Origin: Oscillospiraceae bacterium
GTDB taxonomy: Bacteria > Bacillota > Clostridia > Oscillospirales > Oscillospiraceae
NCBI GenBank assembly: GCA_017538965.1
Contig: JAFYHU010000044.1
Coordinates: forward strand, 1 to 48,509
Reading direction: 5' to 3'
Length of the DNA stretch: 48,509 nt
The notes below the pieces were generated by a model. That model was not told where the DNA came from. It did no database searches and saw nothing but the letters and a program-made list of their open reading frames with translations. Both the position numbers and the translations under genes were made by a program. Numbering within the stretch: the first letter of the stretch is position 1; every line of letters starts with the position of its first letter. Below are positions 17,590-32,583 of the stretch, one piece after another.

Positions 17590-18462
17590 TCATAGATTCC
17601 CGGGGTATACATATTTCAGCTGCCGGCCGGCCAGATCCGCGAGCCGAATAATCACACTTCTATTCGTCGGTTGTGCGTTCAGCATTCGATACCGCGGGAA
17701 AAAGCGGGTAATATGAAGCGGAATGTCCTCTCCGTGCGGGAGCGAGCAAATCCAGTCCGTCATGGCCTGCATTTCCTCCTCCGAATCGTTCATTCCCGGG
17801 ACGATCAGACTGGTCAGTTCCACATGACACTGTTTCGCCGCTTTCGAAATAAAGCGCTTTACGGTCTCCAGATCGCCGCCCAGGGTCTTCCGATAGGTTT
17901 CTTTCCGGAAGCTTTTCAGATCAATATTCAGCGCGTCGACAAGAGGAAGAACGGCATCTGCGATTTCTCCGTTCACGCAGCCGTTGGTCACCAGAACGAC
18001 TTTCAGATTTCTTTCACGGAGGAGCTTTGCGGAATCCCGGACAAATTCCCAGGCAATCAGCGGTTCGTTATAGGTAAACGCGACACCGATGTTTCCCCTT
18101 CCGACCAGCTGCAGCGCCAGATCGGTCAGCGCCTCCGGGGAAATCAGATTCTCCTCTTCATTCCTGTCCCGGCGAAATTCATGACCGTCGGACATGGAGA
18201 TTTCCCAGTTCTGGCAGAAAGGGCAGTTCAGATTGCAGCCGTAGCTTCCGAGGGAAAGAATGCTCGAGCCGGGATAAAATCTTTTCAGCGGTTTCTTTTC
18301 AATCGGATCAAGCGCCAGCGAGGTAGCAAAACCGTAATTCAGCGGGACCACTCTTCCGTATTTCGTGCCGCGCGCACGGCACTTGCCGGTCTTTCCTTCT
18401 TCAATCCGACAGGCATGCGGGCAAACCGGGCAGACCGCAAAACGAACAGAAGAATCAGACAT
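17590..18462 (-). CDS. AmmeMemoRadiSam system radical SAM enzyme (AmrS-like)
   Basis: A 290-residue radical SAM protein related to pyruvate formate-lyase activating enzyme. The SAM-binding 4Fe-4S cluster motif CxxxCxxC is at 76/80/83 (GCNLNCPFCQNW). An additional N-terminal cysteine cluster (CPVCPHAC, 11/14/18, and C28) is typical of AmrS. Further marks are FTYNEPLIAWEF and IDLKSFRKETY. It acts with MEMO and AMMECR1 proteins in a conserved trio whose reaction I do not know to be established. It overlaps the MEMO-AMMECR1 gene by 8 bp, so the two are co-translated. ATG 18462 has GAGG 9 bases upstream; an in-frame TTG at 18477 is less likely. Confidence 0.87.
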   Translation of the reverse strand: MSDSSVRFAVCPVCPHACRIEEGKTGKCRARGTKYGRVVPLNYGFATSLALDPIEKKPLKRFYPGSSILSLGSYGCNLNCPFCQNWEISMSDGHEFRRDRNEEENLISPEALTDLALQLVGRGNIGVAFTYNEPLIAWEFVRDSAKLLRERNLKVVLVTNGCVNGEIADAVLPLVDALNIDLKSFRKETYRKTLGGDLETVKRFISKAAKQCHVELTSLIVPGMNDSEEEMQAMTDWICSLPHGEDIPLHITRFFPRYRMLNAQPTNRSVIIRLADLAGRQLKYVYPGNL

Positions 18463-19843
18463 GACGAACGACCTCAAAACGCTCCATTTCGAATTCTTTC
18501 TCCCGTTCCGACAGACCTGCCTTCCTCAAGGCGATCGACAGCTGTTCCTCCACGGTGTCCACTCCGTCCAGATTCGGCAGCAGAAGCCCTCTTCGAAAGC
18601 CTTTGGTAACAATGACGCCGTAGCGCTTGACGTCCAGCTGATCCCGGGAACTTATTTTCTCCGGGTTTCCGAGCACATCCACGCTGATTTCCAGCGCATC
18701 CAGTTCGTCCGGACGCACCGGGCTGAAGCGGGGATCCTTTGTCGAAGCGCTGATTCCGTTCCCGATGATTTCTTCCGCAATGCTGTTTTGAGTCGGCTGA
18801 ATGGTGCCGATACAGCCGCGCAGTCTCCCGTCTTTATGCAGGGAAACGAACACGCCTGCCTTCCGGCAGAGCATTTCCGGAGGAAGACCGTCGGGAAGTT
18901 TTATCCGCTTTCTCTCTCCCACCCAGGCGTTGATGGTGTCTCGCGCCAGCCTGACATAGGGGTCTTCGTTTTGGCGTTTCTGATCCAGGATCGTTTTCTG
19001 CCGCGCACGCCATTCCTCCAGACAGTGTCTGGACGGATCCTCTCCCGTAACGCGATAGGTGCACACCCCGTAGCCGACGCCGAAGGGCCCTTCGTGGCTC
19101 AGTTTCTCGACTTCCACGGATTTGCCGTCCAAAGCGCCCGCCAGAATGCAGAAGCTGCGATGCCCGCACTCCGCTGCCTTCTCGCAGAAGGTTTCATCAA
19201 AATCCAGGAGCTCGTCAAAGGCGGCACGCCCCATGACATCCATGATGCGCGCATCGTATTCCGGCCCTTCCTTCGAAAGACCGTAGGGCCCCTCTCTGAG
19301 AAGCTTATGGGAAAGGTCTCCGCTGCCGACAATCAGCACGCGCCTGTTCAGCAAATCCGCCGTATGGCTGATCATCTGACCGAGACGGTAATGGTCGGAC
19401 AGCGGAAGCCCGGACAGACCGATCCGGACCAGTCGATAATCCGTAATATATTGGTTTACATAATATAGAGGAATCAGCGTCCCGTGGTCCAGCTCCGGAC
19501 TCCTCTCTCCCAGTGTGCCGGCCGGAAAGCCGGCAGCATCCGCCTGATCGGAAAGCGCTTCGACAAAAGCACTGTCATAGTCCGCACGGATTTTCAGCTG
19601 CGGAGCACGAAACTGCCGCATGTCCCCTTCTGCGCTCTCGCCCGGTGAAATATGGAAATAGTCCGCATACATCACGGAATGGGGCGAAAGAAGCACAAGG
19701 GTTTCCGGCTTCAGGGCACCGACAAAAGCGGCTGCTTGTCGAAAGGCGGCATCCGTTGCCGAAATCTTCTTCTCTTCCCCTCTGCCGACCTCCGGCAGGA
19801 TGATCGGCGGGTGCGGAACCATGATCGCGCCAAGTACCGACAT
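18455..19843 (-). CDS. Fused MEMO-AMMECR1 protein of the AmmeMemoRadiSam system
   Basis: A 462-residue two-domain protein. Residues 1-265 form a MEMO/LigB-like extradiol-dioxygenase fold with the metal-ligand histidines recognisable at H11 (VPHPP), H120 (ELDHG) and H179 (SGDLSH). Residues about 290-460 are an AMMECR1 domain with its invariant LRGCIGT at 341-347. The system often encodes these parts separately; here they are joined, with the radical SAM gene immediately downstream. MEMO family members bind iron or copper. The start at ATG 19843 has AAGGAG 7 bases upstream, while the longer frame to 19864 lacks one. The reaction and substrate are unknown. Confidence 0.87.
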   Translation of the reverse strand: MSVLGAIMVPHPPIILPEVGRGEEKKISATDAAFRQAAAFVGALKPETLVLLSPHSVMYADYFHISPGESAEGDMRQFRAPQLKIRADYDSAFVEALSDQADAAGFPAGTLGERSPELDHGTLIPLYYVNQYITDYRLVRIGLSGLPLSDHYRLGQMISHTADLLNRRVLIVGSGDLSHKLLREGPYGLSKEGPEYDARIMDVMGRAAFDELLDFDETFCEKAAECGHRSFCILAGALDGKSVEVEKLSHEGPFGVGYGVCTYRVTGEDPSRHCLEEWRARQKTILDQKRQNEDPYVRLARDTINAWVGERKRIKLPDGLPPEMLCRKAGVFVSLHKDGRLRGCIGTIQPTQNSIAEEIIGNGISASTKDPRFSPVRPDELDALEISVDVLGNPEKISSRDQLDVKRYGVIVTKGFRRGLLLPNLDGVDTVEEQLSIALRKAGLSEREKEFEMERFEVVRHV

Positions 19844-19866
19844 ATGTATTCTCCTTTTCTCCATTT

Positions 19867-19973: not shown

Positions 19974-20192
19974 CTATCCCTTTACGGGGATCAGCAGTTT
20001 TGTTCCCGGGACGACGGCATTGACATCCGAATTCAGGTCTCTGAGCGTATCAGCCGTTGTGCCGAAGCGATGGGCAAGAACGGGAATGCTTTCTCCGCGC
20101 CGTACGGTATAGACAAATACGGTTCCCGAATAATCTCCTCCGCTGACCTGTTTGAGCAGGTCCTCCTCCATAGGGATCATTCCTTTCGGCAT
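19974..20192 (-). CDS. Double-glycine leader peptide with LysM domain (probable C39-exporter cargo)
   Basis: A 72-residue protein. Residues 1-19 (MPKGMIPMEEDLLKQVSGG) have the layout of a double-glycine leader: GG at 18-19, hydrophobic residues at -4 (V), -7 (L) and -12 (M), and acidic residues between. After the GG come 53 residues that are nearly all one LysM repeat (VYTVRRGESIPVLAHRFGTT, then NSDVNAVVPGTKLLIP), a fold that binds peptidoglycan or chitin sugars. The gene is last in the export operon, 11 bp after the DUF218 gene, with AAGGAG 7 bases upstream. A C39 peptidase-transporter in the same operon could cut after GG and export the LysM peptide. Motifs and linkage are seen; cleavage and export are inferred. 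A cytosolic LysM protein is the alternative. Confidence 0.75.
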   Translation of the reverse strand: MPKGMIPMEEDLLKQVSGGDYSGTVFVYTVRRGESIPVLAHRFGTTADTLRDLNSDVNAVVPGTKLLIPVKG

Positions 20193-20203
20193 ATTCTTTC
20201 TCC

Positions 20204-21643
20204 TTAAATCACAACGGTAAGCGCAGCGCTGATCACGGCGATTACCACAGCCGCCGTCAACTGCTGATAGCGGCTCTCGGACAGAAGGCCGACAAACTCA
20301 CGAAGGAAGGCATTCGGCCAGAAATACCACTTTGTATGACTGCCCATTCCATCGATGTTCCAGCCCATTTCTTCGGCCAGAATGCCGCCGCGGCATACAT
20401 GGTAACTGGAAGTGGAAAAGGCTACTCTGGCGTTCTGATTCTGTCGGGCAATCAGGTCCTTGGAAAAGGTCAGATTCTCTTTTGTCGTCTGCGAGCGGTT
20501 TTCCTTCAGGATCTCATCCTGCGGAATGCCTTTCTCCAGCAAGTAGGCCGCCATGGCTTCGGATTCGGAAAGCGGTTCATCGCTCCCCTGTCCGCCGCTG
20601 GGCACAAGAACTGCCCTTTTCCCGGTTGCGGCAGCCTGGGCGTCGGCAAAGGCAAGGGCCCTTTCCACTCTCCCGCGAATCAGCGGATACAGGCTTCCGT
20701 CCGGGCGGATCCGGCATCCGAGAATAATGACGTAATCCTTGTCGAATGCCGGCTGGTGCCGGCCGGCCTCAAAGGCGCGGATCACCGTAGCCGTCAGCAG
20801 ACATTCGAAATAGACGAACCATCCCGCATAGACGTTGCAGAGAACGTTTCGCATGGAAAAGGTATAATGGGAATACGACAGGCGAACGCCGAGATACGCA
20901 CCCCCGATAATCAGAATCGCCGCGGCGATGCCCAGCATGTTGGCCGGGCGAAAACCCTCATGCGCAAGCAGGAACAGATTGCTGACCGCCATGACGGCAG
21001 CAAAGGCGCCGATCACGTAGGCAGTCCAACGCATGAAGGTCTGCGCCGAAGCGATGAGACCGACAAGCAGAGACCAGACGGTGCCGGCATTTTTTCCGTT
21101 TAAAAACGAGAACAGGTACTGGACGCGCAGAAAACTGAGGACAAAGAAGAAAATGGCAAGGCCGAAGAGACGGATCGACCGATAAGAGAAGCATCTTGTT
21201 TTCTTCTCCCGCAGCGAAGCCGCATACAGGATGGCAGAGACGGTAAGGAAGCAGCCGGTCAGGCATACGACCAGATATTCCCATCCGGTAAAGTTCCAGG
21301 TAATGCTGTCCGTGATGATGCCGAACGGCAGAGAATGCATGGTCATGACGATCTCACCGGCATAGAAGCTGTCTTCCGGCAGACCGTCCCAAAAAACGGC
21401 TGTTTCCGTCACGCCTCTCTGAAGAGCAGAAAAGCGGATTTCCGTTTCCCGTCCGTCTTCCGAAGGTTTTATATCCGAAACCCGGATAATCCCTTCCGGG
21501 TCGAAACGAACCGTCAGGTCACCGCCTTCGGGCGGCGTTTCAAAGAAGAGACTGAGGCCGTCTGACCCGAACACCATGCAGAGGAACAGAATCAGCGTCC
21601 AGATCAGAACTGCAAACAGGATCCCTAACAGAACTTTTTTCAT
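20204..21643 (-). CDS. Multi-pass membrane protein with DUF218 (YdcF/SanA/ElyC-like) domain
   Basis: A 479-residue membrane protein. One helix near the N-terminus is followed by a beta-rich external segment (about 35-125), then about six more hydrophobic segments (about 125-300) and a DUF218 domain (about 310-440: VIILGCRIRPDG, then VPSGGQGSDEPLSESEAM and ENRSQTTKENLTFSKDL). A final helix closes the protein. DUF218 proteins such as SanA and ElyC affect the cell envelope and lipid-carrier metabolism, but their chemistry is unsettled. It lies between the exporter genes and the LysM peptide (16 and 11 bp gaps), so it probably serves the same system. ATG 21643 has a close AGGGAG; a longer frame to 21715 would overlap the upstream gene. 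Confidence 0.75.
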   Translation of the reverse strand: MKKVLLGILFAVLIWTLILFLCMVFGSDGLSLFFETPPEGGDLTVRFDPEGIIRVSDIKPSEDGRETEIRFSALQRGVTETAVFWDGLPEDSFYAGEIVMTMHSLPFGIITDSITWNFTGWEYLVVCLTGCFLTVSAILYAASLREKKTRCFSYRSIRLFGLAIFFFVLSFLRVQYLFSFLNGKNAGTVWSLLVGLIASAQTFMRWTAYVIGAFAAVMAVSNLFLLAHEGFRPANMLGIAAAILIIGGAYLGVRLSYSHYTFSMRNVLCNVYAGWFVYFECLLTATVIRAFEAGRHQPAFDKDYVIILGCRIRPDGSLYPLIRGRVERALAFADAQAAATGKRAVLVPSGGQGSDEPLSESEAMAAYLLEKGIPQDEILKENRSQTTKENLTFSKDLIARQNQNARVAFSTSSYHVCRGGILAEEMGWNIDGMGSHTKWYFWPNAFLREFVGLLSESRYQQLTAAVVIAVISAALTVVI

Positions 21644-21659
21644 TTCTCCCTGCGGTGAA

Positions 21660-23843
21660 TCAGGTATCCAGACGCTGGCGGGCAACAAGCTCCGCAAAAT
21701 AGCCGTTTTTGGCAATCAGTTCATCATAGGTTCCGTCTTCCATGATATGGCCTTTGTCCAGCACCAGGATACGGTCGCAGTTGCGGATGGTGCTCAGGCG
21801 GTGTGCAATCACGATGCGCGTGCACTTCATCTTATCCAAAGCATCTGAAACCTGCTTCTGGGTCTTGTTGTCGAGAGCGCTGGTCGCTTCGTCAAACATC
21901 AGGATTTTCGGTTTCGGCGCAACTGCGCGTGCAATCATCAGGCGCTGTTTCTGGCCGCCGGAAATACCGCCCTGGCCCTCCGAAAGGATCGTATTCATGC
22001 CCATGGGCATGGCGCGGATATCATCGGCAATGCCGGCGATCTCCGCAGCTTCCCAGGCTTCATCCAGCGTCAGCTGCGGCGCCGAAATGACGATGTTGGA
22101 GTAGATATCGCCCTGGAAAAGGCTTCCGTCCTGCGTGACGACGCCCATGCGCCGCCGCAGAGAGCGGAGATCCAGCTTTGTCATATCCTTGCCGTCATAG
22201 TAGATCGCGCCCCGTTCCGGGATTTCAAAGCCGAGAAGCAGGCGCATCAGCGTCGACTTTCCGCAGCCTGTTCTTCCGACAAGGGCAATGTATTCCCCTG
22301 CCTTGATTTTCAGGCTCATGCCGTCGACCACATAAGGCATGTTCTCGTTATAGCGGAAATAGACATTGGAAAGCTCGATGTTCCCTTTCAGCGAGGTCAC
22401 CATCGTCTTGTTTTCCGAAGACTCCGGCTCGGTCTTCAGGATCGGCTCGGCCATTTCCAGAATCGGTTTGATCTGCGCAATGGAAAGCGCAACGTTGGAC
22501 ATGGCGGTAAAGGCGCCCATGACGGAACCGAAGGCAGTATTGAAGGCGATATATTCCGAACCGGAGACGTTTGTTTTCACCGCCAGATAGTAGAGAATAA
22601 TGGTGCCGCCAAGGGAGATAGCCAGACTGATTGCAGAGTTTGCCTTGATGAAAGCCGGCGGATTATAGCTGTACTCGGCGGCTTCGGAATAGCATTTCGC
22701 CCAGCGTGAAAAAGCTCTCTTTTCGGCTCCGGCCAGCTTGATCTTCTGCACGCCGGTAATCAGACCGTAGCTGAGACCGCTTTCCTTTGCGCTCTTCTGC
22801 ATGACCTTCCGGCTGATGTTCATCTGCATGAAGGTCGAAAACACGCTGACGAGGACCGTCACCACAATGATCAGCAGCGCCGGCACCACCAGAGCAGACG
22901 CATAATGGAAGATCTGGGTAATGTACATCAGCGACATCACCGAAGTCAGGCCCATGGAAAACACGTTTCCAAGAAGCAGCGTACAAAGCTGGTTGACGGC
23001 GCTGTAGCGGCTGGAGAGTTCGCCCGAGGAATAATTCCGGAAGAAGTTTGCCGGCAGGTTCATGACGCGCATCATCATGGCAGCTTCCACGGAAAGCGAG
23101 GTTTTGATCTCAATGCGGTTCATCATCAGTTCCCGCACGATGCTGATAATCTGGGTGGAGACCAGGACGCAGAGCATGAAAACAGCCGTTCCGTAAAGGA
23201 GCGCATAGTTCCCGCTTTCCAGGACAAAGCCGGTCAGGGCTTTTGTCAGGTACGTCATCATCATGCCGAAGAGAGTTGCGGCAAAGGTCAGCACAACAAT
23301 CATCGTAAGGTCGCCGGAGTTCAGGCAGCCCCACATGTAGGCAATCAGGTCCGGAATTCCGAGCTTCTTCAGAGGAAGAGGCTTATAAAAGCAGATCGCA
23401 TCCTCATCAAGCAGCGCGGCTGTTTTTGCGTTCAGGCTGACCTTTTTGCCGGTGGAAGGATCCCGGTAGGTATAGCCGATAAAGGGCTTCGGCAGAAGCG
23501 CCACCGGCATCCCGTCCTCCTTGCGGAAGGCAAGCATGGGACCGAAAGCATCCTTATACCAGCCCTTTTCAAGGCGGACATTGCGCCGCATCAGACCATG
23601 CGGGCGCAGGCAGAATTCCAGCTGTTCATCCGGGTCCCGGATGGAATCCGGAATCTCAGCAGGTTTGTAATGATAAAATTTTAAAATCTCATCGATGGCT
23701 TCCTTGGTAACGATGCGGTCGCTGTCCACGATGCCGGCCTTCTGTTTGCCGAGCACGACGGCAGCCATGCGGAAGATGGACTCTTCAAAGACCTCCTGGT
23801 CCCGTACCTTGCGTTCTCTGATCTGTTCGTCAAACCAACCCAC
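21660..23843 (-). CDS. NHLP/NHLM-type peptide export ABC transporter without peptidase domain
   Basis: About 727 residues. An N-terminal region (1-165) starting GWFDEQIRERK lacks C39 residues and is typical of the second ABC protein in NHLP/NHLM bacteriocin export systems. A six-helix transporter domain follows (about 170-450). The ATPase has GRTGCGKST (Walker A), ISGGQKQR (signature) and ILMFDEATSALD (Walker B). It should dimerise with the peptidase-bearing transporter upstream, 15 bp away. The frame could begin at GTG 23852, but GTG 23843 gives the family-like start and has a G-rich ribosome site 8 bases upstream, so I chose it. Confidence 0.85.
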   Translation of the reverse strand: MGWFDEQIRERKVRDQEVFEESIFRMAAVVLGKQKAGIVDSDRIVTKEAIDEILKFYHYKPAEIPDSIRDPDEQLEFCLRPHGLMRRNVRLEKGWYKDAFGPMLAFRKEDGMPVALLPKPFIGYTYRDPSTGKKVSLNAKTAALLDEDAICFYKPLPLKKLGIPDLIAYMWGCLNSGDLTMIVVLTFAATLFGMMMTYLTKALTGFVLESGNYALLYGTAVFMLCVLVSTQIISIVRELMMNRIEIKTSLSVEAAMMMRVMNLPANFFRNYSSGELSSRYSAVNQLCTLLLGNVFSMGLTSVMSLMYITQIFHYASALVVPALLIIVVTVLVSVFSTFMQMNISRKVMQKSAKESGLSYGLITGVQKIKLAGAEKRAFSRWAKCYSEAAEYSYNPPAFIKANSAISLAISLGGTIILYYLAVKTNVSGSEYIAFNTAFGSVMGAFTAMSNVALSIAQIKPILEMAEPILKTEPESSENKTMVTSLKGNIELSNVYFRYNENMPYVVDGMSLKIKAGEYIALVGRTGCGKSTLMRLLLGFEIPERGAIYYDGKDMTKLDLRSLRRRMGVVTQDGSLFQGDIYSNIVISAPQLTLDEAWEAAEIAGIADDIRAMPMGMNTILSEGQGGISGGQKQRLMIARAVAPKPKILMFDEATSALDNKTQKQVSDALDKMKCTRIVIAHRLSTIRNCDRILVLDKGHIMEDGTYDELIAKNGYFAELVARQRLDT

Positions 23844-23858
23844 GATCCGCACCCCCCA

Positions 23859-26039
23859 TCAGTCGCTGGAAATCAGGTCGGCATAATAGCCGCCTTTTGC
23901 ATACAGGTCTTCATGTGTGCCGCGTTCCACGACCACGCCCTTGTTCAGAACAATGATTTCGTCGCAGTCGCGGATGGTGCTGAGACGGTGCGCAATGACA
24001 ATGCAGGTAATTCCGCGGTCCTTGACCGCCTTGACCAGCTCGTATTCCGTCTTGGCATCCAGCGCCGAGGTCGCCTCATCCATAATGATGATCGACGGAT
24101 CCTGCGCCAGAACACGGGCAATTTCAAGGCGCTGCCGCTGGCCGCCCGAGAGATCTTTTCCGCCTTCCGTCAGCTTTCCGTAAAAACCGCCTTCGCGCGC
24201 CATGATGTCGTCATAGATCTGGGCATCCCGCGCCGCGAGAATCATTTCAAAGTCCTCGATGGAATCGTCCCACATCTTGATGTTGTTGGCAATGGTATCT
24301 TCAAAAAGAACAATATCCTGATCAACCACGGCCACGGAACCGGTAAACACGCTGTGATCGATCTCGGAAAGCGGTTTCCCGTCAAACAGAATCTCGCCTT
24401 CCCAGGGCTGATAGAGGCCGGAGATCAGCTTTGCCAGCGTTGATTTGCCGCAGCCGGAGGTACCGACAAAGGCCACCCGGCTGCCCGGCTTCATGGACAT
24501 CGAAAAGTCCTGAATCAGGGGATCTGCCAGTCGGGAATACCCAAAGGTAATATGCTTGAGTTCTACGGTTCCGGTCAGCTTGGAATAGTCAGCATCCTCG
24601 TCCAGCGGCATTTCCTTGAAAACACTGTCGGCGGGATACTGCATCACGTCTTCAACGCGTTCCATATCCGTCCGCATCTCCTGGATGGTCTGGCCGGCCG
24701 AAATCAGCGTCATGGCCGGCGCCATGAAGGAGCTCAGGAAGCCCTGAAAGATCATAATGCTACCAAGGGTGAATTCCCCTCTCATGGTCAGGAAAACACC
24801 GAGCACCATAACAGCGGAATTGGCGATCAGGCTGAGAAGCGCAGGGATGGCACCGAGATACTGGTTCAGCCTGGCATAGCGTACCTGCTGCGTATTGACG
24901 GAAGCCTGATAACCGGCCCACTTCTGAAAGAACCCGTTTTCGGCACCGCTGGATTTGATGGTTTCGACCATCTGGATGCCGGACACCGTGGCAGAGGCCA
25001 GTTTCCCGGCATCCCTCATCTGGACGCGGGTAATGTTCACTCTTTTTTTCGAAATCAGCCTGGATACCAGCAGATTCAGGATGATGGTCGTGATGCCGAC
25101 GAGCGTCAGAATCACGCTGTAGCGCAGCATCAGAACCAGATAGAAGATCATCATGATGGTATTCAGCGCAAGCGGAGTAAAGGTGTTGACCAGGGTGCTC
25201 GCAATGGAAGCGTTGGTGCCCTGGCGCTGCAGAATGTCACCGGCCAGCCGCTGGGAGAAGAATTCCATCGGCATACGCAGAACCTTCCACATGAAGGTGC
25301 TGCTGCCTTCGATCGCCATCTTGCCGTTGATCTTCAGGGAATAGACCGCCTGCACCCAGGCGACAATGACCTGTGCCAGAGCAAACAGCGACATCAGCAA
25401 AATAAACGGGTTCAGCAGCTCCGTGTTCGTACCTGACAGGAGGTAGTCCATAAAGAAGCGCGTAAACACCGGTTGAATGATGCCGAACAGATAGCCGATG
25501 ACGGTTGAAAGCAAAACAAAAGCCACGGCTGCACCGGCACCGGTCAGCCGCTTTTTTGCAAAGTCAAGCGTGCTTTTCTTTTTTCCGCCCGGCTTGAAAT
25601 TCGGACCCGGAGTAATCTGCAGACAAATACCCGTAAAGGAGCGGTCAAAATCCTCTAACGGGACTTTCACCTCTCCTCTGGCAGGATCGTTGATATAGGC
25701 ATACTTTCCCCGGAATCCGTCGAGAACAACAAAGTGATTAAAGTTCCAGTGGATGATGCAGGGAAACAGGATATCTTCCCGAAGCGCTTCGACTTCACAG
25801 CGAAAACCTTCAGCTTCAAAGCCGTAGTTTCTTGCCGCAAGCAGGACGTTCCGCGCATTGGAACCGTCACGGGAAACACCGCAGTCGAGACGGACCTGTT
25901 CCAGCGGCACCCAAAGGCCGTAGTACGCCATTACCATGGCAAGGGAAGCCGCCCCGCATTCCAGTGCTTCCATCTGCATGATCACCGGAACTTTGGCTCT
26001 TCCCTTTGACACAGGCTTTTTGACCTTTTTCTCCCCCAT
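23859..26039 (-). CDS. C39 peptidase-containing NHLP/NHLM-type peptide export ABC transporter
   Basis: A 726-residue bifunctional exporter. Residues 15-150 are a C39 cysteine peptidase: catalytic Cys in MEALECGAASLAMVMAYYG, His in WNFNHFVVLDG, Asp in YINDPARG. These enzymes cut leader peptides after GG during export. The membrane domain (about 165-450) is followed by an ATPase with GTSGCGKST, LSGGQRQR and IIIMDEATSALD. The candidate substrate is the LysM peptide at the operon end, the only GG-leader gene I found. It starts at ATG 10 bp after the adaptor gene. All catalytic and ATPase motifs look intact. Confidence 0.9.
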   Translation of the reverse strand: MGEKKVKKPVSKGRAKVPVIMQMEALECGAASLAMVMAYYGLWVPLEQVRLDCGVSRDGSNARNVLLAARNYGFEAEGFRCEVEALREDILFPCIIHWNFNHFVVLDGFRGKYAYINDPARGEVKVPLEDFDRSFTGICLQITPGPNFKPGGKKKSTLDFAKKRLTGAGAAVAFVLLSTVIGYLFGIIQPVFTRFFMDYLLSGTNTELLNPFILLMSLFALAQVIVAWVQAVYSLKINGKMAIEGSSTFMWKVLRMPMEFFSQRLAGDILQRQGTNASIASTLVNTFTPLALNTIMMIFYLVLMLRYSVILTLVGITTIILNLLVSRLISKKRVNITRVQMRDAGKLASATVSGIQMVETIKSSGAENGFFQKWAGYQASVNTQQVRYARLNQYLGAIPALLSLIANSAVMVLGVFLTMRGEFTLGSIMIFQGFLSSFMAPAMTLISAGQTIQEMRTDMERVEDVMQYPADSVFKEMPLDEDADYSKLTGTVELKHITFGYSRLADPLIQDFSMSMKPGSRVAFVGTSGCGKSTLAKLISGLYQPWEGEILFDGKPLSEIDHSVFTGSVAVVDQDIVLFEDTIANNIKMWDDSIEDFEMILAARDAQIYDDIMAREGGFYGKLTEGGKDLSGGQRQRLEIARVLAQDPSIIIMDEATSALDAKTEYELVKAVKDRGITCIVIAHRLSTIRDCDEIIVLNKGVVVERGTHEDLYAKGGYYADLISSD

Positions 26040-26049
26040 TTTCAGGCCC

Positions 26050-26466
26050 TCAGTTGAACAGCAGGCTGAGAACCTGTGTCTGCTTCAATACGACTTTGGC
26101 GGAATAGGTCCCGTTTTCCAGCGTGGTCTCCGCGACGGCAAAGGTGCTACCGTTTGCACTGTGGCCGACGCTTGTTACCTTGGCCGTGGTATCTCCCACC
26201 GCCACCTTCATGCCACTCTTGATCATCTTTTCCAGATTCGGGTCATCGATTTTGATGACCATGCTCCCGTCATTGACGGTCGCGGTAGCGCTGGCAAAGG
26301 TATCAATGGTAGCGACAGAACTCCAGATCAGGCATCCGACAAGCAGCAGAATGATGGCTGCCAGAATCAGCCACACCGTGGGGTTTGTTACATGGAGATA
26401 GTCGTGCAGCTGCTCCGGAGAGGAAATCTGATCCAGACTCTTTTTACGAAACAGTTGATTGTCCAT
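26050..26466 (-). CDS. Short HlyD-like adaptor of the NHLM export system
   Basis: A 138-residue protein starting FRKKSLDQISSPEQLHDYLH, as in the membrane-fusion proteins of NHLM peptide exporters, followed by one membrane helix (about 30-52). The rest is a small beta domain with two lipoyl-like halves (VIKIDDPNLEKMIKSGMKVAVGD and following). Full-length adaptors have about 400 residues with long coiled-coil arms that reach an outer-membrane channel; these are absent, as expected in a single-membrane cell. It lies between the STAS and C39 transporter genes with gaps near 10 bp. The role is inferred from the N-terminal signature and context. Confidence 0.75.
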   Translation of the reverse strand: MDNQLFRKKSLDQISSPEQLHDYLHVTNPTVWLILAAIILLLVGCLIWSSVATIDTFASATATVNDGSMVIKIDDPNLEKMIKSGMKVAVGDTTAKVTSVGHSANGSTFAVAETTLENGTYSAKVVLKQTQVLSLLFN

Positions 26467-26476
26467 GGGTGCCTCT

Positions 26477-26776
26477 TTACTCTATTGTCAGAATATCAAC
26501 GAATCCCGTCACTTCGAAGATTTCCATGATGACATCACTGACATTGATCAGTTTCATGCTCCCCTGCTTTGCCATGCTTTTCTGCGCAGAGAGAAGAACG
26601 CGGAGCCCGGCAGAGGAAATGTATTCCAAGTTCTGGAAATCGAGGACCAGTTCCTTCAGCCCGTCCATGCTTTCGCGCAGACTTTCTTCCAGCTGGGGAG
26701 CCGTCGTCGTATCCAGACGCCCCTCCAGGGAAACCGTCAGCACTTCGCCTGTCAGATTCTTGTTGATGTTCAGCAT
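26477..26776 (-). CDS. STAS-domain (anti-anti-sigma factor-like) protein
   Basis: A 99-residue single STAS domain with SLEGRLDTTTAPQLEESL and LVLDFQNLEYISSAGLRVLL. The Ser of ISSAGLR is the residue phosphorylated in SpoIIAA/RsbV-type anti-sigma antagonists. No anti-sigma kinase or sigma factor is nearby, so partners must be elsewhere or the domain has been reused to control the exporter. It is the first gene of the export operon, 10 bp before the adaptor. ATG 26776 has GGAGGG 7 bases upstream; the in-frame ATG at 26791 has no ribosome site and was rejected. Confidence 0.85.
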   Translation of the reverse strand: MLNINKNLTGEVLTVSLEGRLDTTTAPQLEESLRESMDGLKELVLDFQNLEYISSAGLRVLLSAQKSMAKQGSMKLINVSDVIMEIFEVTGFVDILTIE

Positions 26777-26825
26777 GATATTGCCCTCCATTTATGAAAA
26801 TTCAATTGATTACTTAGAAGTTGCC

Positions 26826-26854
26826 ATTATATTATTTTATTGTTCTCTGTCCAA
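26826..26854 (-). promoter_or_regulatory. Promoter of the peptide-export operon
   Basis: On the minus strand TTGGAC (26849-26854), a 17-bp spacer and TATAAT (26826-26831) lie 50 bp before the STAS gene. The -35 box sits inside the first of two 11-bp tandem repeats, so a bound regulator could contact RNA polymerase directly. Confidence 0.75.
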
Positions 26855-26870
26855 CAAATGTCCAACAAAT
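26849..26870. promoter_or_regulatory. Two perfect 11-bp tandem repeats at the export promoter
   Basis: GTCCAACAAAT occurs twice head to tail, at 26849-26859 and 26860-26870. Together with the next bases it forms a 16-bp perfect palindrome ACAAATCCGGATTTGT at 26865-26880. An 11-bp direct-repeat period equals about one helical turn and is the spacing bound by OmpR-like winged helices, including SARP activators, two of which are encoded nearby. The binding protein is inferred. Confidence 0.65.
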
Positions 26871-28082: not shown

Positions 28083-28889
28083 TCAGGAAGATTGTTCCCG
28101 AAGAAGTCTGTCCAGATATGCTTCCGTCTGGCTTGCCCAGGAATAGGCGCTCATATATTCTCCGCGATATTCATTGATCGTTTCGCGATCGCCGTCCAGG
28201 AAACGGTACAGGTCACTGTCCAGACGGTCCGGCAGAATGCGCATCCATCCGCTCTGAATCTCAAAGATTTCTGCGATGCCCGCTTCCTCCAGCGTGCTTC
28301 GCAGACTGCGAATCACGACATCCATCTGTTTCTGCATGGCCCGGTCATAAAAGGCATCTTCCCAGAGCACGGCAAAGGCTTCCGGCCTTGAAACGTTTCC
28401 TCCATGCCTGTCAACCAGATACGCCAGCAGTTCCTTGGATTTTGAACGTTTGAAAACAACCGGCTTTCCATCAACGAGGATATCAAAATTCCCGAATGTT
28501 TTGACAAAGATATGGGATGAGGCCGGGCGGTTTTTTCCGGAGAGAGCATAATTAACCTCCGCGTAGAGCTTTTCCCGGTTGATCGGTTTCAGCAGATAGC
28601 CGGAGGCGTGCAGCTTGAACGCATCCAGAGCATATTCCGCATATCCCGTAAGAAAGATAATCGCCGTACCGGGGTGCATCTCGCGGATCCGGGCGGCAAG
28701 TTCCAGCCCGTTCATCGCCGGCATATCGATATCCAGCAGCGCAATATCCGGCGTATGTTCTTCCAGCCAGTCCAGCGCTTCCAGGGGCCCTGCAAATCCT
28801 TCCACCCTGTCAAACTGGGGAAGGTCGCGAAACAGGGACAGCGTCAGCTGCAGGACCAGCGGTTCATCGTCAACACAGATGGCAGTCAT
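28083..28889 (-). CDS. Response regulator with SARP-type (winged-helix plus BTAD) output
   Basis: A 268-residue regulator. The receiver (1-120) is complete: acidic pair D7 D8, phospho-acceptor D53 in ALLDIDMP, Thr in FLTGYAEY near 81, and Lys in LLKPIN near 103. A winged-helix domain follows (KTFGNFDILVDGKPVVFKRS), then a helical BTAD-like region rich in Tyr and Asp (DSDLYRFLDG, YRGEYMSAYSWAS). This is the layout of SARP-like activators, which bind 11-bp direct repeats. It overlaps the LytS-type kinase by 4 bp (ATGA), so the pair form a two-component system. ATG 28889 has GGAGG 8 bases upstream. The repeats at 26849 are a likely target. Confidence 0.85.
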   Translation of the reverse strand: MTAICVDDEPLVLQLTLSLFRDLPQFDRVEGFAGPLEALDWLEEHTPDIALLDIDMPAMNGLELAARIREMHPGTAIIFLTGYAEYALDAFKLHASGYLLKPINREKLYAEVNYALSGKNRPASSHIFVKTFGNFDILVDGKPVVFKRSKSKELLAYLVDRHGGNVSRPEAFAVLWEDAFYDRAMQKQMDVVIRSLRSTLEEAGIAEIFEIQSGWMRILPDRLDSDLYRFLDGDRETINEYRGEYMSAYSWASQTEAYLDRLLREQSS

Positions 28890-29755
28890 TTTTCTTTCCT
28901 CCCGGGGTTTGCGGGTATTTTGATCGTGACGGTTGTCCCCTTCCAGATTTCGCTGTCGATGGACATCGAGCCCTGGCACATCTTTTCTATGCGCTCACGC
29001 ACATTGCGGATGCCGATGTGGCTCCCGTCCGACTCCAGGGGAGCGTTAACATCAAAGCCCCGCCCGTTGTCGCGGATGGTGATGACATGATCTCTGTCAT
29101 CCTCATAGCTGGAAACGATCACTTCTCCTCCGTATTTTCCGCGGACGCCGTGCCGGATCGCATTTTCCACCATCGGCTGTACGCTCAGAGCGGGAAGCTC
29201 AAAATCATCGTCCCGGATATCATAGATGATCCGGATGGAGGGGATCCTGAGCATCTCAATATCCGCATAGATTTTGGTATGCTCCAGTTCCTTTTGAAAC
29301 GGTATCAGCGACGACTGGCCGAGCGATTCGATATTCATTCTCAGATAGGCGCCGAATTTCTCCGTCGTATCAAAAGCCTTCTCCGGATCGATCCGGCATA
29401 ATGCCTGGATTGTTGAAAGCGTATTAAACAGAAAATGCGGCTGAATCTGTGAAATCATGAGCTGAATCCGCTGTTCCGCGACCAGCGCCTGTTCATGCTC
29501 CCGTTCCATCTTCTGATGCAGCCGGAAAACGGCAAACACGCAGGCAACCGCCAGAACCGGCACCAGCCAGCCCGGCGTACCGGTCAGCAGAATCTCCGCC
29601 GTGAGAAGGCAGCAGAGCAGCAGAATGACCGCCAGAAGAATCAGTTTCTGATTGCGTCTGAAATACCGGTCCGTCAGCACGGTCACAATGAGCCCTATCA
29701 GCAGCAGGCCCAGCGTCAATATCAGTTTCCATAGATTTGAAGCATCCGGAGCCAT
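28886..29755 (-). CDS. LytS-type membrane sensor histidine kinase
   Basis: A 289-residue kinase of the His_kinase (LytS/YehU) class. Three hydrophobic segments (about 9-28, 37-58 and 62-80) form a small membrane sensor with little external sequence. A short coiled coil leads to QIQPHFLFNTL, with the phospho-accepting H107. The ATPase domain has MVENAIRHG (N box) and IRDNGRGF (G1). It is coupled by a 4-bp overlap to the SARP-type regulator. The signal is unknown. Start ATG with AAGGG 6 bases upstream. Confidence 0.88.
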   Translation of the reverse strand: MAPDASNLWKLILTLGLLLIGLIVTVLTDRYFRRNQKLILLAVILLLCCLLTAEILLTGTPGWLVPVLAVACVFAVFRLHQKMEREHEQALVAEQRIQLMISQIQPHFLFNTLSTIQALCRIDPEKAFDTTEKFGAYLRMNIESLGQSSLIPFQKELEHTKIYADIEMLRIPSIRIIYDIRDDDFELPALSVQPMVENAIRHGVRGKYGGEVIVSSYEDDRDHVITIRDNGRGFDVNAPLESDGSHIGIRNVRERIEKMCQGSMSIDSEIWKGTTVTIKIPANPGRKEK

Positions 29756-29926: not shown

Positions 29927-32434
29927 TTACCTCTGTTCGTTTACATACAGCGTGGCTTTGCTCTGAATCAGTTTGGCGGCCTCCTCAGCGCTGCGCTGGC
30001 CGGCGAAGAACGGAGCAGCCCCTTCGGTTATGATCGCTTTCATGCTGTCATCCATCCCCAGAACGCGTGTTGTTGCATTGATCATTTTTTCGACAAGCGC
30101 CACATCTTCTTCGGAAACAATCCGGTATTGATAGATTCCGCCGTTCAGCATTGTGCTGTCCCGTTCCGCTTCTTTTCGACTCCCGTCTTCGTTCAGGACA
30201 AAGCTGCCATCCGGATTTCTCTCGTATTGAACCGTCATGGCGTTCTGTTTCATTTCTTCATACACGGTAAGATTGGTCGGAAAGGCCGCATAGGTAAACT
30301 GCTCCTGATAATCCGGGAGGAAGAACTGCCGGACGAACTGCCAGGCCGCTTCCTTGTCTTTGCAGCCGGCCGTAATGGCAAAGGAATTGCCGATCTGGGC
30401 AAACATGCTCCCGAAGCCGTTTTCCGTAGGATATCCGACGAAGGTACACGGCGCACCGCCGAGGCCGACCGTATTGACCTGGGCATCTTCAAAGCAGTTG
30501 AAATTGCATTGCTTCAGCAGCTGCATACCGGAAAGAATTCTTGCATCCGAATCCATGTCAGCAAGCGTCGGGTTTTCCGCTTCCCAGTCAAAGGCAGCGG
30601 GAAAGCCGTTGACAAACTCAAGCAGCTGAATAAAGCTGTCGGAATCAAAGCGGCACTCTCCCGTAGTCCAGTCTACATAGTCTTCCAGTTCGAGGTAGAG
30701 CAGGAAGGTCAGAACATCGTCGCTGGTTATGAAGCGGTCAAATACCGTGCTGTCCGGGTTTTCGGCACGAAGAATCTGCATGGCATCCTGAAGCTGGCTC
30801 ATCGTCCAGCCCATCTGATCCCCGACGCGCTCGCTCAGCCCGGCGGTTGTCAGAACATAGAAGTTGCTGACGGTCTGAACAAGCTTCCCGTTTTGTTCAA
30901 AAGCCGAAAGCACATGCTCATTCAGATCGGAGCGGCTGAGTTCGGGATCCGCATCGATCATCGGATACAGGTCCTCCAGCAGGCCGGAGGAACCGAAACG
31001 GTCTGCGGAAAGCAGGCTGATGTCGATCAGGTCCGGAGCATTGCCCGCAATGATTTCCGTCTGGAGCCGATTGACGCCGGCATTCCAGTCCGCTTCATCT
31101 TCGCTGCTGTAATCATTATATTCCGAGTAATCCGTTACCTCAATGCGATAATTCGGATTGCTCCGGTTAAAACGAATCACCATTTCGCTGGTGAAGGGGT
31201 ACAGATTCAGGACCGCCAGGCGAAGGATCGTCTTTTCATTGGGATCATAATCGGCGGAAGGGCTGAGCACGCTCAGTTCATTTCGGATTCCCTTGGAAGA
31301 TTCGCGGCTGTGAACGGCAGCAATCCGGTTATCCGAGAGCACGCAGAAACTGTCTTCCGCACTGTGCATGACATCGCTTTCCGTCCATCCGAGAATTCTG
31401 CTGATCTCTCCGTCTTCCAGGTTCAGGCTGTAAAGCACGTCGCCAGCGCTGTACCAGATGCTGCTGCTGTCCGGACCGGCGTAAAGCATGTCGATATAGT
31501 TGTCGGTCTGCCAGATGTTTTCAACCGCATCGGTTTTCCCGTTCAGTATGCCGACGACAGGCTTGCCGTTTTCATACAGGGAAACCGCAACTCGCCCGTC
31601 CGGAAGAGAAACAAGACGTTCTGCCGCACTGTCGAGAGAAACGGTCCGGACAATGCTTCCTGTTTTCTCGTCCAGGATGCAGATACGATTGTCTTCAAAG
31701 AAATTGCCTTTTCCGACAAACCACTCGCTGACAGACAGGCAGATCTGTCCGTTTTCATCCGCAGCGATGGCGTTCATCTGCAGCGTATAATTCCCCTCTG
31801 CCTGTTCAACGCTTGCCGCATGGCTGTCAAGGCTGTCAAGCGGGAAGCGGGAAACGGGTGTTCCGTCCTTCCTGATCCCGCTCAGAACATACAGATCTCT
31901 GCTTTCCAGTTTCTCATCAGAGGAAATGTTGTCTCCTTCCGCCGCAGCTTCTGCCGCAGATTCTCCCGAAGCACCCGGCTTTGTAAGCGTATGCTTCTCA
32001 AGAATCCAGAGTTCGTCATCCTTGCCGGCACACAGCTTTTCAAATACGATGCTTTCCTGCTCCCCTTCGGAGGCTTCGGTTTCCGGAACGTAATTGATTC
32101 TTTCCACGGATCCGTCGGTCGTTATCCTGCAGAGGATCGGGCCGTAAACCCAATACTGTTCCTCCCATTCAGGGGTTACCCCATCGGGAGTTCTGTCTTC
32201 CAGAACGCCGAGAGCAGTAAAGTAAAGATCATCCCCGAATACCGTTCCGTTCTGAAGCGCAGACGTCAGGCTGCTGTCGGTCAGGTCGAAGCAGCAATTC
32301 TGATAGTGAAGAACGGCTTCCGTTTTTTCGGCCTCCGCCTCCCGGGTTTCCGGTATTTCTTCTGTCTTGCCGCAGCCTGTCAGCAGGCTGAAGCAAAGAA
32401 CGAGCATCAAAAGCACGGCAATCTTTCTTTTCAT
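29927..32434 (-). CDS. Large solute-binding-protein-like lipoprotein
   Basis: An 835-residue exported lipoprotein with the lipobox LLTGC (Cys21). Residues about 60-400 contain repeated short beta strands with Asp/Gly turns (RICILDEKTGSIVRTVSL, LVSLPDGRVAVSLYENGK), suggesting a beta-propeller. Residues about 410-800 resemble a family 1 ABC sugar-binding protein (LRLAVLNLYPFTSEMVIRFN, then NAPDLIDISLLSADRFGSSG and KEAAWQFVRQFF). Ordinary binding proteins have about 420 residues and neighbour permease genes; none is present. It lies between the two REC-SARP regulators and may sense a ligand for them, or borrow a transporter encoded elsewhere. GGAGG lies 5 bases before the ATG. Confidence 0.75.
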   Translation of the reverse strand: MKRKIAVLLMLVLCFSLLTGCGKTEEIPETREAEAEKTEAVLHYQNCCFDLTDSSLTSALQNGTVFGDDLYFTALGVLEDRTPDGVTPEWEEQYWVYGPILCRITTDGSVERINYVPETEASEGEQESIVFEKLCAGKDDELWILEKHTLTKPGASGESAAEAAAEGDNISSDEKLESRDLYVLSGIRKDGTPVSRFPLDSLDSHAASVEQAEGNYTLQMNAIAADENGQICLSVSEWFVGKGNFFEDNRICILDEKTGSIVRTVSLDSAAERLVSLPDGRVAVSLYENGKPVVGILNGKTDAVENIWQTDNYIDMLYAGPDSSSIWYSAGDVLYSLNLEDGEISRILGWTESDVMHSAEDSFCVLSDNRIAAVHSRESSKGIRNELSVLSPSADYDPNEKTILRLAVLNLYPFTSEMVIRFNRSNPNYRIEVTDYSEYNDYSSEDEADWNAGVNRLQTEIIAGNAPDLIDISLLSADRFGSSGLLEDLYPMIDADPELSRSDLNEHVLSAFEQNGKLVQTVSNFYVLTTAGLSERVGDQMGWTMSQLQDAMQILRAENPDSTVFDRFITSDDVLTFLLYLELEDYVDWTTGECRFDSDSFIQLLEFVNGFPAAFDWEAENPTLADMDSDARILSGMQLLKQCNFNCFEDAQVNTVGLGGAPCTFVGYPTENGFGSMFAQIGNSFAITAGCKDKEAAWQFVRQFFLPDYQEQFTYAAFPTNLTVYEEMKQNAMTVQYERNPDGSFVLNEDGSRKEAERDSTMLNGGIYQYRIVSEEDVALVEKMINATTRVLGMDDSMKAIITEGAAPFFAGQRSAEEAAKLIQSKATLYVNEQR

Positions 32435-32583
32435 GAATGCCTCCTGCGGTTAAAATGGAATGTCCGGATACTATCACAGCCTTTATCACAGAACTGTCAC
32501 ACGCAGCACGGCTGAAACAGCATTCGGCATGATATCACAACAGCTTCAAAATGTCCAGCCGTCTGCCAGGCGCATTTCTTTTA

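Follow-up and report, generated by a model that had tools for sequence, protein, structure and literature searches.

A predicted bacteriocin-type export route for bare wall-binding domains in gut Oscillospiraceae

According to the part of PMC2887384 considered here, the C-terminal cores of NHLP and N11P precursors are variable and contain many modifiable residues, and single genomes can hold many such precursors, up to 29. For the MccV exporter, a C39 peptidase system acting on double-glycine (GG) leaders, the part of PMC10231218 considered here reports that EGF and eglin C, both folded small proteins, were secreted and cut at the leader. An operon with features of both systems was investigated in a contig of 48,509 nucleotides from an Oscillospiraceae bacterium (JAFYHU010000044.1, assembly GCA_017538965.1), the whole of which is called the window below. 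Judged by family models, this operon is an exporter of the NHLM type, with two ATP-binding cassette (ABC) subunits, and has its own gene for a short LysM protein with a GG leader (GG-LysM). The best explanation overall, to which we assign a probability of about 75%, is that the exporter cuts and exports a dispersed set of GG-leader proteins that includes wall-binding domains. The sequence basis is formed by the leader and its conservation, the domains, the co-occurrence with the exporter, the frequent location beside it and a shared promoter; cleavage, export, binding, benefit and the identity of the acting regulator are what we infer from it.

Leader of the LysM protein and composition of the operon

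The window LysM protein begins with the leader MPKGMIPMEEDLLKQVSGG, which ends in VSGG and has valine at position -4, leucine at -7 and methionine at -12. The first-pass annotation of this DNA had claimed hydrophobic residues at exactly these positions and was right; a GG preceded by all three is found here beside a C39 exporter. The LysM domain behind the leader is complete, its match to PF01476 exceeding the cut-off of 20.9 bits and covering all 43 model positions with residues 28-69. When the protein was scanned against NCBIfam, no family was found at E 0.001, including the leader models TIGR03793 and TIGR03798. The GG is invariant in an alignment of eight sequences, in which the window protein is joined by seven orthologues with 41-50% identity to it. 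Because of this invariance, and because nearly every short LysM open reading frame (ORF) of the genus has such a leader, the GG of the window protein is, by sequence comparison, more than a chance match. By the same comparison every mark of the proposed GG-leader precursor type is present, and the comparative evidence argues strongly for a precursor of the adjacent exporter.

Homologues that keep the LysM domain but have lost the GG beside an intact exporter, which would have spoken against the proposal, were sought and none was seen. The GG was present in all seven window-type orthologues and in all 26 short LysM ORFs of 80 named exporter loci. Of the 81 short LysM ORFs examined in the genus, 80 have it, and the remaining one is truncated by a contig end. 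The gene for the DUF218 protein directly adjoins the LysM gene in all seven named loci that have the window-type LysM.

The leader was also compared across precursors. A strict pattern kept 92 of 150 sequences and dropped 58, among them many real GG precursors; a looser pattern, used in its place, kept 103 and dropped 47. The alignment of 122 precursors comprised 99 of the 103 kept, the window protein, 18 of the 47 dropped and four LysM ORFs recruited by similarity; three chance matches (L251:14814, L255:9031 and L261:4075) and one sequence with unread letters (L286:9084) were left out. The consensus of the 120 precursors that fit the required positions -7, -4 and GG is E-L-S-D-E-E-L-E-x-V-(A/S)-G-G, in which these positions are partly circular because the set was checked by hand and selected on them. 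Residue -12, though not a selection criterion, is L, I, M or V in 119 of the 120.

The six genes of the operon all lie on the minus strand between 19974 and 26791 (Table 1), placed as first annotated, with gaps of about 10-16 bp once the likely starts are used. With NCBIfam models for the exporter subunits and Pfam for the domains, both ABC subunits of an NHLM (NHLP-type) export system scored above their cut-offs. The first contains a Peptidase_C39 domain (111.8 bits, residues 17-146); for the second, relatives suggest a start at 23843. The HlyD-like protein of 138 aa is not a full-length adaptor of the NHLM system: it reached 33.3 bits against TIGR03794 (cut-off 156.2) and matched only positions 2-84 of 421. 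No maturation enzyme was matched among the operon proteins by NCBIfam or Pfam.

Distribution in the genus and among wider relatives

The genus was surveyed in 61 genomes with leader-blind Pfam models (PF01476 for LysM), ORFs of <200 aa from stop to stop being regarded as short. LysM was found in 56 genomes and CW_7 in 28. The 30 LysM loci returned contained 22 short ORFs, all with the leader, and eight long proteins, none with a GG leader (one, L175, was flagged by the loose pattern through GA, not GG). All 20 CW_7 loci were short and had a GG leader, that of L192 being read by hand. Among the matches listed there were 67 further short LysM ORFs, matches of the genome under study being excluded; 59 were obtained, eight not being included, and 58 of these had the leader. 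The remaining one starts at a contig end, with the GG as its first two residues. These counts together give the 80 of 81 mentioned above.

The exporter was detected above cut-off in 36 of the 61 genomes. GG-LysM, scored with a model that includes the leader and excluding G414, whose sole match lies in a long frame, was present in 32 of the 36 exporter-bearing genomes and in one of the 25 others (Fisher p 8e-12), and CW_7 in 27 and one, respectively. When only the 23 better genomes were considered, GG-LysM occurred in 11 of 14 with exporter vs one of nine without, and CW_7 in nine of 14 vs none of nine. Of 111 short GG-LysM matches, 43 lie within 20 kb of a C39-ABC gene, in 21 of 33 genomes, and contig ends hide others.

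The 80 named loci are nearly all titled as Firmicutes groups, many titles naming ruminant gut sites (rumen, abomasum, intestine); the closest is an Oscillospiraceae metagenome-assembled genome from goat ileum, with 84% identity. Besides the LysM ORFs, 13 of 15 short CW_7 ORFs and six of six SH3-like ones carry a GG leader there. One CW_7 exception is truncated by the contig start (L254), the other is the second frame of an apparently frame-shifted gene (L257). Since the LysM, CW_7 and SH3 models for these loci were seeded with GG proteins of the group itself, three of the four SH3 seeds coming from the same loci, the leader-blind genus counts are the fair test.

In a quick tree of 81 C39-ABC proteins, 16 of the 17 LysM/CW_7 loci fell within one 30-row set (Shimodaira-Hasegawa-like approximate likelihood ratio support 95), which also holds nine loci without detected cargo and five with other GG peptides. 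The LysM/CW_7 label was more clustered on the tree than in any of 500 shuffles, and four of the five SH3 loci form a separate set. A HlyD-like relative stands beside the exporter in 73 of the 80 loci. The STAS gene lies directly upstream in only 15 of the 66 loci with at least 1 kb of upstream sequence, which weakens the idea that it is a constant part of the exporter. In one relative (L075:7750-10470, minus strand) a GG-CW_7 gene adjoins a sensor with Cache, HAMP, SpoIIE phosphatase and anti-sigma kinase-like domains, possibly a partner for the STAS protein. A further GG-leader family of about 140 aa is recurrent (L076:6152-6583, L247:1166-1591, L247:1650-2075 and L248:209-631); it is perhaps all-beta, and two members scanned singly gave no Pfam match.

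At the family level, a first GG-LysM model gave leader-covering matches at E <1e-12 in four of 150 genomes, all four of which have the exporter, and the C39-ABC protein was above cut-off in 47 of 400. The surroundings of C39-ABC matches were scanned by sequence pattern in 43 loci. GG-LysM or GG-CW_7 was found near the exporter in the genus and in three of four loci of the sister genus g84, and zinc-ribbon-like or other GG peptides in loci of some other genera. Many of the 43 showed no GG cargo by this pattern, which missed some real genes; nothing was found in the G363 locus, although LysM and CW_7 genes are present there. In 391 genomes of the class, a sample with few close relatives in which part of the candidates was scored, all matches listed outside the genome under study at E 1e-11 start at model position 24 or later, so that none of them covers the leader. 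For this reason the combination of GG-LysM and exporter looks lineage-specific, and a general clostridial trait was thought unlikely.

Dispersed GG-leader genes and their shared promoter

The genome to which the window belongs (completeness 93.9%) has LysM at eight places. Six are short ORFs, all with a GG leader: the window copy, four near-identical proteins of 83 aa and one of 78 aa (C26); the other two belong to one 346-aa protein with two LysM domains and without a GG leader (C46). The four 83-aa proteins have three different leaders, ending in ELRDVAGG, ELSEVTGG (twice) and ELNGVSGG. Their genes (L009:943-1194, L009:3194-3445, L010:4246-4497 and L011:9051-9302) are nearly identical in DNA after the GG and diverged in the leaders, and three are followed by a leftover repeat of their own 3' end, a pattern that suggests recent duplication or gene conversion. 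A seventh GG protein is LysM-like (C20:46132), another is SH3-like (SH3_3 22.2 bits, below the cut-off of 27), and further GG-leader genes encode zinc-ribbon-like and Cys-rich proteins. A DNA pattern for E-L/F-x-x-V-x-G-G matched 21 times in the genome, vs five times for the reversed pattern. The LysM protein had first been described as the only visible cargo, which holds within the operon but not genome-wide, given five other short GG-LysM genes and the many further GG-leader genes. It had also been considered that another GG peptide might be the true substrate; many candidates exist, but they look like extra cargo and not like a replacement. Arrays of GG peptides were observed at L079:4723-7901 and L080:4218-5276, several sharing a longer leader (MKLTGKLK...DDELDQVSGG) before short, variable and often Cys-rich cores; these stretches also carry the promoter described below.

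Among 75 of 91 ABC candidates scored, only two proteins match TIGR03796 from its first position, which includes the C39 part; in the remaining ones the match starts at position 97 or later. The second C39-ABC gene is clustered with genes for two radical SAM proteins, a methyltransferase-like protein and two Nif11-type precursors, by gene content a separate cluster for ribosomally synthesized and post-translationally modified peptides (RiPPs). It is apparently split across two contig ends (L022 and L023; end of C63 and start of C44), one radical SAM protein scores 378.6 bits against the ACGX model (cut-off 400), and its Nif11-type precursors are Cys-rich. As this exporter has its own RiPP-type cluster, the plain GG proteins may well be served by the one in the window, their most obvious candidate.

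The upstream regions of many scattered GG genes share two TGTGAC repeats with 11-bp spacing and an extended -10 element, together TGTGAY-N5-TGTGAY-N8-TGnTAnnnT. Searched as TGTGAYNNNNNTGTGAYNNNNNNNNTGNTANNNT with at most two mismatches, this pattern has 30 sites in the genome and none when reversed. A GG-leader ORF begins within 120 nt of 21 of the 30 sites, and of 14 of 22 when the eight own-genome sites first seen are excluded; at random places in the fetched stretches of the genome, one followed in 46 of 6000 cases. Because 21 of 30 sites precede GG-leader genes, the window LysM is probably not the sole cargo, and the pump would serve a dispersed regulon of small GG-leader proteins. In the genus, 25 of 61 genomes have sites at one mismatch, control patterns being absent from all 61, and at least three sites were found in 21 of 36 exporter-bearing genomes vs two of 25 others (p 5e-5). 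Of the 27 sites in the loci of relatives (L419-L446), 15 are followed by a GG-leader ORF within 150 nt.

The arrangement seen here, direct repeats with 11-bp spacing that adjoin a -10 element ahead of the genes, is that of a SARP/OmpR-type regulon. The window has one copy of the promoter, 33 bp before a lipoprotein gene, which is followed in order by genes for a histidine kinase, a response regulator and alanine racemase and by the exporter operon. As the part of PMC5930380 considered here states that SARP proteins bind direct repeats with 11-bp spacing close to the core promoter, the OmpR/SARP-like regulator is the best guess for the protein acting at this promoter; control by it and the kinase is a guess by analogy. 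Before the STAS gene lies another direct repeat, TTGGACA-N4-TTGGACA, the sole exact copy of YTGGACA-N4-YTGGACA in the window, which perhaps points to a second regulator of the same kind. Related repeats of the TTGGACA type are also seen upstream of some scattered LysM genes. Next to the operon, genes of the AmmeMemoRadiSam type (17590-19864) are apparently unrelated to the exporter; in the gene at 18455-19864 part A scores above and part B below the cut-off, and the gene at 17590-18477 looks like a candidate for its radical SAM partner.

Table 1. Features of the exporter operon and of the upstream regulatory region in the window
Feature	Position	Strand	Basis and remarks
72-aa GG-leader LysM protein (putative cargo)	19974-20192	-	PF01476 31.9 bits
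Predicted mature 53-aa single LysM domain, DYSGTV...	19977-20135	-	Translation; predicted cleavage
19-aa double-glycine leader MPKGMIPMEEDLLKQVSGG	20136-20192	-	Sequence; fits leader profile from 120 precursors
DUF218 membrane protein	20204-21643	-	PF02698 85 bits; listed ORF to 21715, likely ATG ~21643
Second exporter subunit, ABC without C39	21660-23852	-	TIGR03797 741.8 bits, cut-off 709.4
C39 peptidase-permease-ATPase exporter subunit	23859-26039	-	TIGR03796 933.8 bits, cut-off 853.3
Truncated HlyD-like adaptor, 138 aa	26050-26466	-	TIGR03794 N-terminal match only
STAS-domain protein	26477-26791	-	PF01740 63 bits; alternative ATG at 26776 (end in first-pass annotation)
Direct repeat TTGGACA-N4-TTGGACA, 11-bp spacing (putative operator)	26848-26865	-	Before STAS gene
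Response regulator, OmpR/SARP-like C-terminus	28083-28889	-	Response_reg 92.8 bits; likely ATG 28889
Sensor histidine kinase	28886-29755	-	His_kinase 69.5 bits
Lipoprotein-like protein with solute-binding domain, first gene after promoter	29927-32434	-	SBP_bac_1 40.8 bits
Window copy of regulon promoter TGTGACAGTTCTGTGATAAAGGCTGTGATAGTAT	32468-32501	-	33 bp before lipoprotein gene

Proposed export route, alternatives and comparison with known systems

In the proposed route, the kinase and the OmpR/SARP-like regulator would activate the scattered GG genes from the shared promoter. The C39 domain would recognize the ribosomal precursors and remove the 19-residue leader after the GG, and the ABC pair would release the free LysM domain of 53 residues, which, once outside, would be expected to bind peptidoglycan or another polymer of N-acetylglucosamine. 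In relatives, bare CW_7 pairs and SH3-like domains would take the same route. It thus appears that gut bacteria, many of them from ruminants, send out bare wall-binding domains through a bacteriocin-type pump. A wider picture, for which we see even chances, is that gut Oscillospiraceae, many from ruminants, have turned such an exporter into a secretion route for small folded domains, with a two-component regulon of about 20 or more GG proteins in which LysM, CW_7 and SH3-like proteins form a recurrent core, acting as a wall coat or as non-catalytic wall-directed weapons.

Several observations weigh against this route. The window LysM gene has no regulon site before it, and its operon has a different repeat before the STAS gene. 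Nine of the 30 promoter sites lack a GG-leader ORF within 120 nt; two of these have one further downstream, at 181 and 303 nt, and the remaining sites precede lipoprotein-like, membrane and other proteins. At one mismatch the promoter pattern is missing from 15 of the 36 exporter-bearing genomes. The response regulator scores 24.8 bits against Trans_reg_C, below the cut-off of 26.2, and has no BTAD match. In the genus, no exporter was found within 20 kb of 68 of the 111 GG-LysM genes, no GG-LysM was seen in four of the 36 exporter-bearing genomes, and in two genomes cargo is present with no exporter detected (GG-LysM in G454, CW_7 in G406). The counts are not independent events, since the genomes are related, and the genomes are also partly incomplete. 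The assignment of the plain GG proteins to the window exporter considers TIGR03796 proteins, C39 peptidases outside this family not having been searched for. Finally, a single LysM domain often binds weakly.

The exported LysM, CW_7 and SH3-like proteins might be bacteriocin-like weapons that bind the walls of competitors and disturb growth or lysis, an explanation we hold only tentatively. The leader and exporter are of bacteriocin type, one genome has many diverse cargo genes with four near-identical LysM copies, and six of the 122 GG precursors match the CTB bacteriocin model and one a class IIb model (E 0.001); in the LysM and CW_7 proteins scanned singly, however, Pfam finds the wall-binding domain alone. 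It is a possibility of similarly modest weight that the proteins decorate or protect the wall of the producer, for example against the lysozyme of the ruminant stomach or against autolysins, or serve as surface scaffolds. The occurrence of the same leader type and exporter family with three different wall-binding domains would fit such a coat, as would the tie of DUF218 to the window-type LysM gene and the ruminant rumen, abomasum and intestine named in the record titles of relatives, but other promoter-bearing genes encode Cys-rich or zinc-ribbon-like GG proteins without known wall affinity. Neither of these two readings, weapon or coat, has decisive evidence in its favour.

The position of a kinase, a regulator and a solute-binding lipoprotein just upstream, the lipoprotein gene having the same promoter, could mean that the GG proteins are signals read by this kinase and regulator, the wall-binding part merely limiting diffusion. 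Pheromone precursors are usually short and few, and with 20 or more different GG genes in this genome a signalling role is improbable. Modified-peptide precursors, as described for NHLM exporters, are suggested by exporter families that are the same as in the NHLP/N11P systems and by matches to the Nif11-type leader model, found for 28 of the 122 GG precursors from the vicinity of such exporters. The chance that the window protein is a RiPP precursor is nevertheless slight: NCBIfam gives no family for it at E 0.001, what follows its leader is one whole LysM domain, and the operon lacks any maturation-enzyme match, unlike the second NHLM system with its two radical SAM proteins and methyltransferase-like protein. 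Some LysM proteins, such as YgaU, are cytoplasmic, but a coincidental GG on a protein acting inside the cell is extremely improbable, given the leader in 80 of 81 short LysM ORFs vs none of eight long ones and its absence from the matches listed in the 391 class genomes outside this genome (E 1e-11).

If the proposed export of wall-binding domains is true, the natural cargo of C39/GG systems includes complete folded binding domains besides bacteriocins, pheromones and RiPPs, and gut bacteria have a way of exporting small wall-binding proteins without Sec. By means of the promoter, much of the cargo can be located simply and without protein similarity, even small genes unmatched by any family model, and natural free LysM, CW_7 and SH3-like domains could serve as wall probes.

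Long LysM proteins, SafA-like and others, probably exported by Sec, have the same domain but are long and lack a GG leader (none of the eight). With class II bacteriocins the system shares the short leader with hydrophobic residues at -4, -7 and -12, the C39 exporter and the lack of a modification enzyme in the operon; it differs in the mature LysM domain, in the CW_7 or SH3-like domains of sister genes and in dispersed genes with a shared promoter. We know of no antimicrobial activity of GG-LysM proteins. With the NHLM exporter of NHLP/N11P precursors, as far as it is described in the part of PMC2887384 considered, it has in common both ABC subunits above cut-offs and the GG cleavage motif. 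In those precursors a long leader of the NHase or Nif11 type precedes a small core open to modification, in contrast to the short leader and intact wall-binding domain found here, where in addition the HlyD-like protein has only 138 aa and the operon no maturation-enzyme match. In the MccV type I system (PMC10231218, part considered) a GG-type leader and a C39 exporter likewise free folded small proteins after leader removal; that work used engineered cargo in Escherichia coli, whereas the wall-binding cargo predicted here is natural. SARP-controlled promoters of Streptomyces (PMC5930380, part considered) are alike in the 11-bp direct repeats near the core promoter and, putatively, in the OmpR-like DNA-binding fold; here the repeat and the phylum are different and the regulator is fused to a receiver domain. 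In full-text searches of the literature, with most subscription journals outside them and the hits judged by title and opening of the abstract, no report of a GG-leader LysM, CW_7 or SH3 protein was found, and the main text of PMC13289728 on rumen bacteriocins, in the part considered, has no mention of LysM or NHLM. The exporter, the leader and the domains are each known; as far as these searches show, new is their combination, a natural set of GG-leader precursors that consist of bare wall-binding domains and have a promoter in common.

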